This document shows positions 5,773 to 36,205 of a stretch of 64,000 nucleotides of DNA, one piece after another. The stretch is taken from positions 1,141,638 to 1,205,637 of the forward strand of contig NZ_BSEV01000001.1 of the NCBI RefSeq assembly GCF_027922005.1, written 5' to 3'. The DNA comes from Streptosporangium carneum (GTDB lineage: Bacteria; Actinomycetota; Actinomycetes; Streptosporangiales; Streptosporangiaceae). How positions within the stretch are numbered: position 1 is the stretch's first letter; every line of letters begins with the position of its first letter. Made by a program: the position numbers and the translations under genes. The notes under the pieces were generated by a model. The model saw only the letters and a program-made list of their open reading frames with translations. It did no database searches and was not told the DNA's origin.

Positions 5773-7996
<2,224 letters not shown>

Positions 7997-8028
7997 GGGG
8001 CCTCGCAGGTCAGCGGGGCCCCGCGGGG

Positions 8029-8496
8029 TCAGCGGGCGCCGTCGACGACCTTGCGCTTGCCGAGAGGGGCCTTGAGCTTGACCGTCGTCACCTTCTGGAC
8101 GGCGATGTCGATGCAGGCCACGTTCTGGACCTTGCTGCTCTCGCCCTCCCAGAGGGTGACGGTCACCCGCTTGGCCGTCTGCTTCACGCTCACCCGGTCG
8201 AGCACGTGGCAGGGCTCGACCCCGGACCACCAGACGACCCGCAGACTCCGGCCGTCCTTCGACGGCTTGGCGGACAGCCACGTCACCTTGCGGGGGTTGT
8301 TCGTGTGGCCCTCCGGCTTGACCGGCCTGGGCGCGCCCTTGCCCGTCGGCTCGACCTTGGGCGCGACGGTGTGGCTCACGGACAGGGAGGGGACGGTGAC
8401 GCCTGCTCCCGCGGCGCCGGGGGCCGTGGCGCTGTGTTCGGTGCCACAGCCGACGGCCAGCAACAGGCTTCCCGCCAGGACGGGGATCACGATCAT
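8029..8496 (-). CDS. Lipoprotein of unknown function
   Basis: 155 residues. The start at 8496 has AGGGG 7 nt upstream; an ATG two codons earlier (8502) is the alternative. A short hydrophobic signal ends in the lipobox LAVGC, so the protein should be lipidated at Cys18 and anchored outside the membrane. A Thr/Pro/Gly-rich linker leads to a C-terminal domain (about 75-150) with WWSGVEPC near its start and a second Cys (VACIDIA). These two cysteines could form a disulfide. I recognise this only as a recurrent actinobacterial extracytoplasmic domain and can give no function. Confidence 0.7.
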   Translation of the reverse strand: MIVIPVLAGSLLLAVGCGTEHSATAPGAAGAGVTVPSLSVSHTVAPKVEPTGKGAPRPVKPEGHTNNPRKVTWLSAKPSKDGRSLRVVWWSGVEPCHVLDRVSVKQTAKRVTVTLWEGESSKVQNVACIDIAVQKVTTVKLKAPLGKRKVVDGAR

Positions 8497-8534
8497 ACGC
8501 ATACCCCTGACAACGAACGGCGGCCCCGTCCGGT

Positions 8535-8750
8535 TCAGCGCGCCCTGACGTCGTGCCGTTCCACGATCGCCTCGTCGAACTCGCCTCGTTCCGCGCGTGC
8601 GGAGAGCTTCTCCAGTGCCTCGATCCGCCTGACCCGCGACACGTACTCCCGCAGTGCCGTGTTCACGGTGTCCTTCTTCGTCGTGGTGCCCAGCATCCGC
8701 ATGGCCTCGGCGAGAGCGTCGTCGTCGATGTCGATCTGTGTGACGGACAT
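8535..8750 (-). CDS. VapB-type antitoxin, apparently without a toxin partner
   Basis: 71 residues. The start at 8750 has GGAGGGG 5 nt upstream. The sequence (VTQIDIDDDALAEAMRMLG, then KKDTVNTALREYV) is the ribbon-helix-helix DNA-binding fold of VapB/DUF2191 antitoxins, followed by a helical C-terminal part that would normally embrace a PIN-domain VapC toxin. No PIN domain gene follows: the next gene 33 bp downstream is the lipoprotein and the other neighbour is divergent proC. It may be a solitary antitoxin, a relic, or a regulator in trans. Confidence 0.75.
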   Translation of the reverse strand: MSVTQIDIDDDALAEAMRMLGTTTKKDTVNTALREYVSRVRRIEALEKLSARAERGEFDEAIVERHDVRAR

Positions 8751-8884
8751 GATGCCCCTCCAATGTTGGTCGCCACTAAACGCATTGTGCATCGCCACCA
8801 TCGGCGGGTCGGCCTGCTGTGACGGCTCGCGGTGGTGGCCCCTTAGGCTGGTCATCCGCTTTTCCTCATGCAAGGTGCGTTGAC

Positions 8885-9679
8885 GTGATCGCGATTCTGG
8901 GAACCGGGAAGATGGGCGAAGCCCTGCTGTCGGGGCTGCTGCGGGCCGGGTTCAAGCCGGGCGACGTGCTGGCGACGGCGCGGCGTCCCGAGCGGGCCGT
9001 CGACCTTCGGGAGCGGTACGGCGTGCACGTCGTCTCGAACGCCGAGGCCGCGAAGAGCGCGGAGACGATCATCCTCGCGGTCAAGCCGCAGGACATGGCC
9101 TCCCTGCTGACCGAGATCGCCGCGCACGTCCCCGCCGACCGTCTGGTGATCTCGGCGGCGGCCGGCATCACGACCTCGTTCGTCGAGTCGAGGCTGGAGG
9201 CCGACATCCCGGTGGTGCGGGTCATGTCCAACACCCCGGTGCTGGTCGACGAGGCGATGAGCGTCATCTCGGCGGGCGCCCACGCCTCGGAGGAGCACCT
9301 GCGGCGGGCGGAGGACCTGCTGCGGCCGGTGGGCAAGGTGCTGCGGATCCCCGAGTCGCAGCAGGACGCCGCGACCGCGCTGTCCGGCAGCGGCCCCGCC
9401 TACTTCTTCTACCTCGTCGAGGCCATGGTCGACGCGGGCATCCTGCTCGGCATGCCCCGCGCGGCCGCGCTCGACATGGTCACCCAGTCGATCGTCGGCG
9501 CGGCCATCATGCTCCGCGACTCCGGGGAGCATCCGGTGATCCTCCGTGAGGCCGTCACCTCTCCCGGCGGCACCACCATCGCCGCCATCGCCGAGCTTGA
9601 GCGCCACAGCGTCCGCGCGGCCTTCCTGGCGGCCATCGAGGCGGCGAGGGACCGCAGTCGCCAGCTCGCGGGCGGCTGA
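8885..9679 (+). CDS. proC: Pyrroline-5-carboxylate reductase (proline biosynthesis)
   Basis: 264 residues, normal for the family. It reduces 1-pyrroline-5-carboxylate to L-proline with NAD(P)H. The GTG at 8885 is chosen because AAGG lies 8 nt upstream and it places the Rossmann motif (IAILGTGKMGEALLSG) at the N-terminus as in other ProC proteins. The C-terminal dimerisation domain carries the family signature (SGSGPAYFFYLVEAM and SPGGTTIAAIAELE). It is divergent from the vapB-like gene and shows no operon partner. Confidence 0.95.
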   Translation: MIAILGTGKMGEALLSGLLRAGFKPGDVLATARRPERAVDLRERYGVHVVSNAEAAKSAETIILAVKPQDMASLLTEIAAHVPADRLVISAAAGITTSFVESRLEADIPVVRVMSNTPVLVDEAMSVISAGAHASEEHLRRAEDLLRPVGKVLRIPESQQDAATALSGSGPAYFFYLVEAMVDAGILLGMPRAAALDMVTQSIVGAAIMLRDSGEHPVILREAVTSPGGTTIAAIAELERHSVRAAFLAAIEAARDRSRQLAGG

Positions 9680-33335: not shown

Positions 33336-33365
33336 GCGGTCACATCAGACGCGGTCACATCAGAA
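33336..33365. repeat. 15-bp direct repeat over a stop codon
   Basis: GCGGTCACATCAGA occurs twice back to back with period 15 (33336-33350, 33351-33365). The second copy contains the stop codon of the small secreted protein gene (33360-33362, minus strand). Confidence 0.7.
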
Positions 33366-33671
33366 GGGAATGGACACGCTGAGGCGTGGACCCACCGGGG
33401 TCGGGGTCGTCCCGGGGGTCACGACCAATGAGAAGCCCTGACAGAACGCGTCCGCGTAGACGGTGACGGGCGCGTTCGTGTTGTTGGTGACCGCGTTGAA
33501 CCCGGCTCCGGTGATGCACCCCCGCGGCGGGTTGACGTGCACGTAGGAGGGTCCTGAAGGGGGATTGGACAGGGTGAGCGTTCCTGTCGCCGCACTGGAC
33601 GGCATTGAGGTGACACCGAGGATTCCCGCTGCCAGCGTCGATGCCACCGCGAATCGGATCGCTAGTCTCAT
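33360..33671 (-). CDS. Small secreted protein of unknown function
   Basis: 103 residues with AAAGGG 6 nt before the ATG. A classical signal peptide (MRLAIRFAVASTLAAGILG) ends at about SSAA-T. The mature 75 residues are predicted beta-rich, contain two Cys (NPPRGCITG and DAFCQGFS) that may pair, and end LSVSIPF. Similar short exported proteins occur in actinomycetes without assigned function. It lies 339 bp from the RiPP precursor on the opposite strand, so a link with that cluster is only positional. Confidence 0.65.
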   Translation of the reverse strand: MRLAIRFAVASTLAAGILGVTSMPSSAATGTLTLSNPPSGPSYVHVNPPRGCITGAGFNAVTNNTNAPVTVYADAFCQGFSLVVTPGTTPTPVGPRLSVSIPF

Positions 33672-33929
33672 GGCTAACCCTTTCGAGGCATTTTCACTTC
33701 ATGGGCCGAGCATTTCGACCCGGTCCGGCCACCCCTAATTTCGCATGAAGTCGTTTGTCGGGATCGCACGATGAACTGCCAAATATCACCGGTTTCATGC
33801 CAAAGCGCTCCGGTGTGCCTTCGGCGGGGCAGGCACTCTCCGGACAGCGCCCGGTGGAGTCATGCCCGAGGTGGATCCCGTCGCGGGGCGGCTCATCCAT
33901 CGGGGTGGGCGCCGTGACGCCCGGCGAGC

Positions 33930-33958
33930 TCCAAGGTGCCTCCAAGGCGTTTCCAAGG
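33930..33958 (+). promoter_or_regulatory. Three heptameric direct repeats, SARP-type operator
   Basis: TCCAAGG occurs three times without mismatch at 33930, 33941 and 33952, always with a 4-bp spacer (11-bp period, one helical turn). SARP activators bind this kind of array about 8 bp upstream of the -10. A weak -10 candidate, AAGGAT (33968-33973), starts 9 bp after the last repeat. The transcript would start near 33980, about 30 nt before the precursor peptide ATG. The reverse complement CCTTGGA recurs at 33991-33997. Confidence 0.65.
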
Positions 33959-33967
33959 TGTCGGGCG

Positions 33968-33973
33968 AAGGAT
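33968..33973 (+). promoter_or_regulatory. Candidate -10 of the RiPP cluster promoter
   Basis: AAGGAT at the distance from the heptad array expected for SARP-activated promoters. No -35 consensus is present because the heptads occupy that region, as is typical for such promoters. Otherwise 33672-33929 holds no gene. Confidence 0.4.
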
Positions 33974-34010
33974 TCGGTCGCGTTGAAACCCCTTGGAAGG
34001 AGGTGTGGAA

Positions 34011-34175
34011 ATGACCGTTCGCATCGATGACCTGGATGGCTCCCTGGAGCTTCCCGAGGACGCGCTGGAGACCGTCGTCGGAGGTCGGGAGCCGATGACC
34101 CCCCCGACCCCCAAGCTGTCGTCTTCCCTTGGCAACGGAACGAGGGGCGACCCTCTGCCCGACACGTTCACCTGA
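34011..34175 (+). CDS. Graspetide-type RiPP precursor peptide
   Basis: 54 residues. A near-perfect ribosome binding site (GGAGGTG) lies 8 nt before the ATG. The acidic leader (about 1-25: TVRIDDLDGSLELPEDALETVVGG) is written here in two parts, TVRIDDLDGSLELP and EDALETVVGG, and ends in Gly-Gly. The 29-residue core starts REPM, is rich in Pro/Thr/Ser (TPPTPKLSSSLGNGT), and ends RGDPLPDTFT. It thus has hydroxyl donors (Thr, Ser) and two Asp acceptors for omega-ester rings. It is followed after 63 bp by an ATP-grasp ligase. Recognition rests on size, leader/core layout and context; the exact graspetide class is not known to me. Confidence 0.8.
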   Translation: MTVRIDDLDGSLELPEDALETVVGGREPMTPPTPKLSSSLGNGTRGDPLPDTFT

Positions 34176-34238
34176 GGATGACTGGGCGGCGCCCGTACGA
34201 CCCCGTACGGGCGTCGTCCGCTCGACGCGGAGAATCCC

Positions 34239-35213
34239 TTGATCCTTGTACTCAGCAGAAAAGACGACCTGGCGGTCAACCTGGTGCTGCCCGAGCTCGC
34301 CAAGCGGGGCGTCGAGGCGCTCTGGTGGGACCCCGGAGACTATCCCGCGGAGAGCCGGATCATCTCCCGCCTGGTCGACGGGGCGTGGCGGCACACGCTG
34401 GTCACAGGCGGCGCGGAGTACGACTGCTCGGTTTTCAGCGCCGTCTGGAACCGCAGACCCTCCCGGCCCAGGGCGGCGGACGTCGTCGAGGACGCCACGC
34501 ACCGCGGCTACGTCGAGAAGTTGGCGCGGATCTACCTCAACGGGTGGGAGGACACCTTCGACACCCGCTGGTTCCCCGCGCGCAGCATCGACGTGATCCG
34601 CACCCAGAACAAGCTGCTCAACCTCACGGCCGCCGCCCGGCTCGGCTTCACCGTCCCGGAGACGACCGTCACCAACGACCCCGAGACGCTCGTCGAGGCC
34701 TGGACGGAGGCGGAGGGACGGCTGATCGCGAAAGAGGTCGAGTTCGTGGAGTTCGGGATCGACGGCGCGGGCCACAACTTCTACACGACCCCGGTCTCCC
34801 GGCGGCACCTCACCAGCCGTCACCGTCTGGCCCACGCCCCCGCGATCCTCCAGCCCTACGTCGACAAGGCCGTCGAGCTGCGGATCACCGTCGTGGGCGA
34901 CCGGGTCTTCACCGCGGAGCTCCACTCCCAGGGATCGCGGGCGACCCGCCACGACTACCGCCACTACGAGGGCAACTTCTCCCAGTACGCCGTCCACGAC
35001 CTGCCTGAGGACGTGGAACGGCGCTGCGTCGACCTGGTCGGGTCGCTGGGCCTGGCCTTCGGCTGCATCGATGTGATCCTCACCCCGGAGGGCGAGTACG
35101 TGTACCTGGAAGTGAACCCCAACGGCCAGTGGGGGTGGATCGAGGAGTTCACCGACCTGCCCATCTCCGAGGCGATCGCCGACTGGCTCGTCGCGGGGGA
35201 GGTTCCCGCATGA
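34239..35213 (+). CDS. ATP-grasp RiPP maturase (MvdD/SAV_5884-like)
   Basis: 324 residues. The TTG at 34239 has GGAG upstream. The family uses ATP to activate Asp/Glu side chains of a precursor and couple them to Thr/Ser hydroxyls or Lys amines. Visible are the N-terminal pre-ATP-grasp domain (ILVLSRKDDLAVNLVLPELA), a linker motif NRRPSRPR, the ATP-binding Lys region RLIAKEVEFVEF, and the metal-binding end YLEVNPNGQWGWIE, typical of this maturase group. It overlaps the next gene by 4 nt. Together with the precursor it defines the cluster. Confidence 0.92.
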   Translation: MILVLSRKDDLAVNLVLPELAKRGVEALWWDPGDYPAESRIISRLVDGAWRHTLVTGGAEYDCSVFSAVWNRRPSRPRAADVVEDATHRGYVEKLARIYLNGWEDTFDTRWFPARSIDVIRTQNKLLNLTAAARLGFTVPETTVTNDPETLVEAWTEAEGRLIAKEVEFVEFGIDGAGHNFYTTPVSRRHLTSRHRLAHAPAILQPYVDKAVELRITVVGDRVFTAELHSQGSRATRHDYRHYEGNFSQYAVHDLPEDVERRCVDLVGSLGLAFGCIDVILTPEGEYVYLEVNPNGQWGWIEEFTDLPISEAIADWLVAGEVPA

Positions 35214-36205
35214 CCGGGTTCCCCGAGACGCTGGCCGAGGCCGTCGAGCTGCTGCGCGGGCTGCCGCGCCGGCGCGAGGGCGTGCGGGCCGCCCGCGAGA
35301 GCGTCGCCGCGTGGCGCGCCGTCCGTCCCGGGAGCCGGGCCCAGCTGGTCGTGGACGTGCGGCCCGGCTCACCCGTCGTCGACTACGACCTGATCCTCGA
35401 CCACCCGGACGGCGGCGCCGTCGCCCTCACCGCGCCCGCCGAGGACGGGGTCCCCTGGACGGTCGAGCACTCCACGCACTGGGCGGCGAGCAAGGTCCTG
35501 GCCGTCGACGGCCAGGAGCTGTCGGTGCAGACCGCCCTGCTCACCCTGCGGGCGCTCGCCGGCCGCGACCGGACCGTGCACGACGACCTCATCGACCACT
35601 GCGTCCTCACGCTGGCGAGCTGGGAGGAGCCCGACCCCTCACCGGAGGAGCTGCAGCGGGCCTCCGACGACTTCCGCAGGCGACGGGGCCTGCACAGCCG
35701 GGCCGACATGCTGCGGTGGCTGGAGGAGGTCGGCCTGACGTCCGCCGCCTACGACAACCACCTGTACTCCCTGGCCAGGATGCGCGGTTTCAGGACCCGG
35801 ACGGAAGCCGAGTCGGCCGAGGCCTACTTCGAGGAGCACGCCGCGGAGTTCGACCGGGTCTCGGCCGTGTGGGCCGTCGGGCCCGAGCCCCCGCTGGCCG
35901 AGCTGGCGGGTCACGACGACCCCTTCGCGGCGATCGCCGGGGCGGTCGCCCGTCCCGTGGGGGAGATCGTCGTGCACGTGGCCGACCGGGTGGCCGCCGA
36001 GGTGCCCGCCCCGTTGCGCGAGGCGGGAGAGGGCGACGCGGTCGGGCCGGTGCCGTACCGCGACGGGTTCCTGTTCGGAGCCGTACGGCGTCGCCGTCTC
36101 GCGTCCCCCGACCCCGACACGCTGGCGGCGGCCGGGCGGGCCGCGTTCTCCGCCTTCCTCGCCGACAGACGGGCGAAGGCGAAGGTCGAGTGGTACTGGC
36201 TGTGA
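35210..36205 (+). CDS. PpiC-related peptide maturation system protein
   Basis: 331 residues, cytoplasmic; no signal peptide. ATG overlaps the ATP-grasp stop codon, with GGGGGAGG upstream. The C-terminal part (about 200-331: EAYFEEHAAEF, VGPVPYRDGFLFGAV) resembles the parvulin/SurA-type PpiC family; the N-terminal half (about 1-150) is not recognised. I recall a family described as putative peptide maturation system proteins found next to SAV_5884-type ATP-grasp genes; this fits it. It may present, fold or hydrolytically process the precursor. No transporter or protease gene is adjacent. Confidence 0.75.
   Translation: MTGFPETLAEAVELLRGLPRRREGVRAARESVAAWRAVRPGSRAQLVVDVRPGSPVVDYDLILDHPDGGAVALTAPAEDGVPWTVEHSTHWAASKVLAVDGQELSVQTALLTLRALAGRDRTVHDDLIDHCVLTLASWEEPDPSPEELQRASDDFRRRRGLHSRADMLRWLEEVGLTSAAYDNHLYSLARMRGFRTRTEAESAEAYFEEHAAEFDRVSAVWAVGPEPPLAELAGHDDPFAAIAGAVARPVGEIVVHVADRVAAEVPAPLREAGEGDAVGPVPYRDGFLFGAVRRRRLASPDPDTLAAAGRAAFSAFLADRRAKAKVEWYWL

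Follow-up and report, generated by a model that had tools for sequence, protein, structure and literature searches.

The closest described system is that of rosaritide, a graspetide of group 21 reported in 2026 from Micromonospora rosaria and encoded with MirA, MirB, MirC and MirD (PMC13097080). Neither MirB, a TIGR04187 protein, nor MirC, a TIGR04500 protein, produced a mass shift on its own, while both together gave a shift of up to -54 Da, and the two proteins were co-purified in active form (PMC13097080). Rosaritide contains three macrolactones, S8-D22, S9-D26 and T11-D24, and the N-domain of MirC is essential (PMC13097080). It was the only characterised TIGR04500-dependent graspetide found in the literature. 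The family TIGR04500, or 'cluster 145', was also noted beside actinobacterial ATP-grasp loci as a predicted modifier only (Makarova et al. 2022, PMC8939145); the available text of that account gives no core motif, operator or split arrangement, unlike the analysis presented here.

The locus compared with these systems lies in a stretch of 64,000 nucleotides of the genome of the soil actinobacterium Streptosporangium carneum (contig NZ_BSEV01000001.1, positions 1,141,638 to 1,205,637), which is referred to as the window and whose numbering is used throughout. The features of the locus are as follows.

33997-34003, plus strand: ribosome binding site AAGGAGG, 7 nt 5' of the precursor ATG, read from the sequence
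34011-34175, plus strand: precursor gene, 54 codons
34011-34085, plus strand: precursor leader MTVRIDDLDGSLELPEDALETVVGG, conserved in 13 aligned precursors of 11 genomes
34086-34172, plus strand: precursor core REPMTPPTPKLSSSLGNGTRGDPLPDTFT, 29 aa, with the motif S/T-x4-9-D-x2-3-D found in 13 of 14 cores
34119-34127, plus strand: predicted donors among core Ser12-Ser14
34149-34151, plus strand: predicted acceptor Asp22 of the core
34161-34163, plus strand: predicted acceptor Asp26 of the core
34239-35213, plus strand: graspetide synthetase (ATP-grasp ligase) with MvdD pre-ATP-grasp domain, 324 aa, TTG start
within 34239-35213, plus strand: synthetase motifs DYR (residues 239-241) and EVNPNGQWGW (residues 291-300)
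35210-36205, plus strand: TIGR04500 partner protein ('PpiC-related'), overlapping the ligase gene by 4 nt (ATGA)
within 35210-36205, plus strand: partner domains with approximate limits, namely N-domain (~1-90), SurA-like chaperone part (~90-212 and ~297-331) and inserted parvulin-like domain (~213-296)

The precursor, ligase and TIGR04500 genes form an operon-like row in the window sequence. The initial annotation had described a 54-codon gene with a strong ribosome binding site, encoding a small precursor with an acidic leader ending in Gly-Gly and a Ser/Thr/Pro-rich core with two C-terminal Asp, followed by an MvdD-like ATP-grasp ligase with EVNPNGQWGW near its end and a PpiC-related protein overlapping the ligase by 4 nt; each of these features was recovered, the leader measures 25 aa, and the PpiC-related protein was assigned to TIGR04500. 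The GC content of the precursor gene by codon position (0.65/0.53/0.80) is like that of a coding gene, the GC content of the window being 69.8%. A divergent neighbour (33360-33671, minus strand) encodes a small protein with a signal-peptide-like start, and no link to the cluster was seen.

The ligase scored 229 bits with the TIGR04187 profile, 207 with MvdC and 188 with MvdD as opposed to 45 with RimK, and its MvdD pre-ATP-grasp domain (PF21068) was above the Pfam cut-off. The TIGR04187 score is below the curated cut-off of 350, as are the scores of the three other partner-linked copies in the genome. The solved structures nearest in both sequence and fold are the graspetide synthetases MdnB, AMdnB, MdnC, CdnC, PruB and PsnB, and with the AlphaFold model (mean pLDDT 75) CdnC, AMdnB, MdnC, PruB, MdnB and PsnB all matched ahead of RimK. 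Profile, sequence and fold matches are in agreement that the enzyme is an ATP-grasp ligase of the MvdC/MvdD/TIGR04187 type. Residues D239 and R241 are retained, and we read the 'DFR' motif of the rosaritide paper as D-aromatic-R, which would correspond to DYR in the window. That the enzyme instead adds an amino acid or small molecule to a peptide in the manner of RimK or PGM1, without forming a ring, is highly improbable, for although RimK and LysX/ArgX share the fold and were matched at lower score, the TIGR04187, MvdC and MvdD profiles reached 4-5 times the RimK score, the best fold matches are macrocyclases and the MvdD pre-ATP-grasp domain exceeded its cut-off. The profile scores rule out RimK, LysX and D-Ala ligase as families for this protein, and the ligase does not group with non-RiPP ATP-grasp families, a grouping that the initial annotation had named as one that would refute its proposal. 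Two more TIGR04187 synthetases, both above the cut-off, are encoded in the genome at G000:C10:97097-98011 and G000:C2:693552-694511 (L074 and L075), away from the four TIGR04500 loci, and perhaps belong to ordinary graspetide clusters.

Microviridin clusters contain two ligases each, with a core motif and leader unlike those of the window, and the microviridin ligases MdnB and MdnC are not known to need a TIGR04500 partner; nor is such a partner known for the prunipeptin synthetase PruB. The window synthetase has the same fold and domain layout as MdnB and MdnC (PDB 5ig8, 5ig9), with ELR and D-aromatic-R motifs. PruB (PDB 9bou), from Streptomyces coelicolor, is likewise an actinobacterial ATP-grasp ligase and is 25% identical to the window synthetase over the fold alignment; prunipeptin is called bicyclic in the title of a cited work.

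Synthetases at least 67% identical to that of the window were found in 11 of the 341 genomes of the window's family, its own genome included; the others include Nonomuraea solani, Microtetraspora niveoalba, Planotetraspora, Streptosporangium saharense, Spongiactinospora, Sphaerimonospora thailandensis and N. zeae. The synthetase gene in all 11 genomes is preceded immediately by a conserved precursor with a leader and with donor and acceptor residues in the core, and is followed by a TIGR04500 gene. The precursor frame is thus kept beside all 10 other close homologues, its loss there being the second outcome by which the initial annotation would have been refuted, and the conserved precursor together with the RiPP ATP-grasp profile scores makes a graspetide-type RiPP cluster, as first proposed, the best reading. 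The window cluster is a genuine graspetide cluster of the partner-dependent kind, whose genes very probably direct the formation of a small ring-closed peptide, assisted by the chaperone-like partner. Tandem precursors with diverging cores precede a single synthetase in G279 (three, L091:9127-9781) and in S. saharense (two, L087:2208-2563).

In a synthetase tree of 86 rows built by a quick method, the distant row L043 of 87 having been left out beforehand, the window synthetase fell in an 11-row clade (SH-aLRT 100), itself part of a 44-row clade (99) to which none of the 8 rosaritide-type synthetase rows belongs. The window synthetase is 35-39% identical to these eight, and the window partner is 28-31% identical to the rosaritide-type partners of the three loci compared (L124, L118 and L102). 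TIGR04500 was found in 8 of the 160 genomes of the genus of G434, at rosaritide-type loci, with a precursor seen in 5 of these 8; the precursor motif scan of this Micromonospora-type set, which is not exhaustive and also misses the C12 precursor of the window's own genome, finds L102, L118, L122, L123 and L124 and does not find L119-L121. The locus L124, with core LPRNGAGSSKTIDDIPGGGRPDTDSDF, is called rosaritide-type because that core has every core residue named in the paper at the named number. In a large sister group (L082:7197-7346; L005-L014) the cores are almost identical to one another, contain a single Asp and end in H(T/S)HTSGDSN; the TIGR04500 scores of this group are among the highest, and it has no heptad pairs (0/11). 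In Nonomuraea spiralis, a doubtful second short ORF with a GG leader, MNDFGTGARELDDDELAAVNGGMWANYDWRDAVIDALP, follows a partner-system cluster at a distance of ~2 kb (L040:9788-9904).

The precursors were aligned with MAFFT as 13 rows from 11 genomes, the first of the three G279 precursors being left out of the 14 found. Invariant positions are M1, R4, D7, L14, D17, L19, G24 and G25 together with one core Asp column, in which the second Asp of the window (D51) is placed opposite the first Asp of the others, so that the core register is unsure. The motif S/T-x4-9-D-x2-3-D was chosen after the cores had been seen; it is present in 13 of the 14 clade cores, the exception being the first G279 precursor with one Asp, and when each of the 13 motif-holding cores is shuffled, the motif turns up in 4-21% of the shuffles. 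The precursors of Microtetraspora, Streptosporangium and Spongiactinospora and two of those in G279 carry a Cys ahead of the S/T and another between the Asps, neither of which is present in the window core. The microviridin-type motif was not seen in the window core. The rosaritide arrangement of three donors with D-x-D-x-D acceptors is also absent, the window core having D-x3-D only. Two clustered Asp, as against three in rosaritide, suggest two rings, and judged from the core sequence the window product is probably bicyclic. A product of the same class with one or three rings, in which core Glu2, Lys10 or Thr19 took part or only one Asp was used, is rather unlikely: the window core does offer one Glu, one Lys and eight Ser/Thr, and carboxylates are single or few in the cores of sister groups from the same synthetase clade (for example ...SVSWKIGGKPAEWVIS), but Glu is missing in 7 of the 14 clade cores and Lys in 4, against the D-x2-3-D following S/T in 13. 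Comparison of this two-Asp peptide with its three-Asp relative would be a natural way to test the evolution of ring number.

The third protein matched TIGR04500 with 250.7 bits against a cut-off of 180 and is encoded with the synthetase, as in rosaritide-type loci. Since it is a distant homologue of MirC, the architecture of the cluster has already been described. The AlphaFold model (mean pLDDT 82, pTM 0.65) matched SurA, Cj1289 and PrsA. Residues ~213-296 matched isolated parvulin domains, namely the PrsA fragment 6xd8 (Z 7.7, rmsd 2.5 over 80), Par14 (3ui4, rmsd 2.7 over 81) and Pin1; a Z below 8 by itself proves little, but the low rmsd over the whole domain and the position of the domain within a SurA-like frame are in agreement with this match. 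The end of the N-domain was poorly modelled (mean pLDDT 54 for residues 71-80 and 36 for residues 81-90) and its weak fold matches were left unread. No relative was found when a sequence profile of the partner was searched against the PDB, the one chance match being T4 lysozyme (E 0.05), and a Pfam search of the partner gave no rotamase at E up to 1.

Parvulins use an active-site His in the first and the last strand. The window protein has no His in either strand of the parvulin-like domain and the inserted domain therefore looks inactive, an active PPIase being thought unlikely. All 10 partner rows have Ala at position 219, which was assigned to the first strand by eye, one row having His at 216, and position 287 in the last strand is His in 4 of the 10 (Planotetraspora, N. 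zeae, N. solani and S. thailandensis) and Phe in the other 6, including the window. As a His used by parvulins in catalysis seems to be kept in these four relatives, PPIase activity may differ inside the branch. Our own reading of the model is that the partner would be a chaperone descended from a SurA/PrsA-like foldase. Its predicted resemblance to SurA and Cj1289 is the same as that reported by the authors for MirC; according to that paper, the C-domain of MirC and the PPIase domain of Cj1289 are not similar (PMC13097080), in contrast to the parvulin-like domain that seems visible in the window's branch. Matches to TIGR04500 covering only ~84-339, without the N-domain, were observed in several genomes of the family (for example G112:C22:671588-672286 and G100:C42:72868-73572).

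The gene set of rosaritide consists of that of the window plus the transporter MirD (PMC13097080, as far as its available text extends), and no adjacent peptidase-containing transporter of this type is present at the window cluster. No C39 peptidase was recognisable by tblastn in the 64-kb window, neither a leader peptidase nor a transporter lies beside the cluster, and a local leader peptidase was not found. The genome contains four TIGR04500 clusters and a single C39 match, which adjoins the cluster on contig C6, composed of a synthetase and TIGR04500 gene with the C39 transporter (L081:9451-11482 and 7119-9350). A full-length homologue of the C6 transporter adjoins the cluster in 6 of the 11 clade genomes (on the opposite strand in Microtetraspora) and is absent from that position in 5, the window included, while a C39 match is present somewhere in all 11; in S. 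carneum, N. solani and Planotetraspora, the three of these 5 in which the surroundings were inspected, the distant C39 gene adjoins another synthetase or TIGR04500 gene. The window cluster could be viewed as a decaying remnant that lacks its peptidase-transporter and exports nothing, given the six clade members with an adjacent transporter. This is quite improbable, since the three frames are intact, D239 and R241 are kept, the promoter array is perfect, and all five clade members without an adjacent transporter retain a C39 match elsewhere.

The motif scan, which is known to miss the C12 precursor, showed no precursor in the 18 kb covered at C6. When 150 of 249 candidates were scored with a profile built from precursors of the C6 cluster's tree neighbours, one was found at C7:73833 (E 2.6e-28) and none at C6. 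This lone precursor (L127:1501-1644; G000:C7:73833) is complete, reads MSKINIDDIPFEG...GGRMSVSWTIGGKPAEWVGTNN and lies between unrelated genes, and no TIGR04187 match was found on C7. With no precursor seen beside the enzymes on C6 and no synthetase match on C7, enzymes and substrate therefore appear to be split in this genome.

Upstream of the window precursor are two further features.

33929-33957, plus strand: three direct heptads, CTCCAAG-gtgc-CTCCAAG-gcgt-TTCCAAG, with 4-bp spacers and an 11-bp period, in the layout of a SARP-type operator
33968-33973, plus strand: AAGGAT, separated from the last heptad by 10 nt and possibly a -10 element

Three copies of TSCAAG at an 11-bp period gave one perfect match in the 9.84-Mb genome, which is the window array. 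With up to 3 mismatches there were 17 matches in the whole genome, one being the window array in shifted register, and since the reversed pattern gave 14, the weak matches as a whole are at background. Two of the 17, each with 3 mismatches, nevertheless lie upstream of precursors, 123 nt from the start codon at C7 and 125 nt from that at C12; none was found upstream of the C10 precursor. When the window heptad was used as a probe, 22 of 60 precursor upstream regions, that of the window included, reached p<0.05 on dinucleotide shuffles against ~3 expected. The 60 regions are those left by the precursor scan and a 150-nt minimum, identical precursors being taken once, and they include the doubtful ORF L040:9788 and the partly coding region of the second L087 precursor, which passes p<0.05. 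Exact CAAG pairs 11 bp apart are present in 24 of the 60; of the other spacings, those from 5 to 21 gave 0-4 each and 22 gave 14. The controls gave 0/60 for the DNA between 200 and 400 nt past the start and 1/60 for the reverse strand. By precursor types set with simple patterns, the pairs occur in 7/8 ERCY, 12/21 SKI/EW, 2/2 SS..DxD, 2/14 of the window clade, 0/11 KSQVI and 1/4 others; related sequences were counted singly and the counts are therefore not independent events. Beyond its two exact pairs, the window clade has TCCAACC/TCCAAGG-like arrays at L084, L086 and L090 and nothing clear in the rest.

A SARP operator is laid out as heptad direct repeats separated by 4 bp and placed ahead of a gene, and the window array has this layout. 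The genome contains 35 BTAD matches, none of which falls within the window on contig C1 or close to it, and neither a report linking graspetides with SARPs nor a RiPP precursor with SARP direct repeats was found in the literature. Other winged-helix regulators also read direct repeats. With no SARP gene linked to the cluster, the array might be the target of a different type of regulator, such as a response regulator or sigma factor, an alternative we regard as doubtful against the fit of CAAG-ending heptads with 4-bp spacers to the PimR, SanG and PolR operators (PMC3367932, PMC5930380). Those SARP operators have two or three CGGCAAG-type heptads, the available text giving 4-bp spacers for PimR, whose footprinted operator is TGGCAAGaaagCGGCAGGtgttCGGCAAG (PMC3367932, PMC5930380). 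They drive polyene or nucleoside-antibiotic genes as described in these sources, whereas the window array precedes a RiPP precursor. The operator can serve as a search tag for precursors encoded at a distance from their enzymes, which are missed by gene-neighbourhood mining, and perhaps also as a way to switch the pathways on.

The DNA itself shows the three genes with the families they belong to, the conservation of the precursor, the array and where the C39 gene lies; from these the following mechanism is proposed. A SARP-family activator probably binds the heptad array and switches the operon on. By analogy with rosaritide, the synthetase and TIGR04500 protein would form one complex in which the partner keeps the synthetase folded and presents the precursor. 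The synthetase would bind the acidic leader and use ATP to phosphorylate Asp22 and Asp26 of the core at their side-chain carboxylates. Attack on the activated Asp by Ser hydroxyls from the run S12-S13-S14 would give two macrolactones (-36 Da), for which the calculated monoisotopic mass of the core behind GG falls from 3068.52 to 3032.50 Da. Cleavage behind Gly-Gly would then free the core for export, perhaps through the C39 peptidase-transporter beside the paralogous C6 cluster. The mechanism is carried over a long distance, because the synthetase is only 35-39% identical to those of the rosaritide type and scores 229 against the TIGR04187 cut-off of 350; nonetheless, a partner-dependent graspetide operon working as proposed is considered highly likely.

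The best reading, as far as sequence comparison extends, is that the window cluster belongs to a set of partner-dependent graspetides that is dispersed over the genome and controlled by a SARP. In its fullest form, which is put forward tentatively, this would be a dispersed regulon with several partner-dependent synthetases, at least one precursor without enzymes (C7), one enzyme cluster without a seen precursor (C6), one SARP-type operator and one shared peptidase-transporter, in which the window member yields a bicyclic product whose ring pattern has not been observed before. No characterised product of the window's branch was found in the literature text, consistent with the initial annotation that knew of no described product with such a core. 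The window's branch shows that cores of a wide range are served by the partner system, and it is therefore a good place to ask about the role of the chaperone-like protein and about the choice of rings by synthetase and partner.

Compared with rosaritide, as given in the available text (PMC13097080), the window cluster has the same make-up of leader-bearing precursor, TIGR04187-type synthetase and TIGR04500 partner, with Ser/Thr donors before clustered Asp acceptors and with core D22 and D26 at the same numbers. The window cluster differs in having no Asp at core position 24, in the sequence of the leader, in the low identity of synthetase (35-39%) and partner (28-31%) and in belonging to another clade of the synthetase tree; the published similarity groups were drawn from a network at an alignment score of 70. 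Overall, the class is known, and the window branch differs from the known systems in its core, its split parts and its heptad operator, of which the operator, together with the lone precursor, was least expected.
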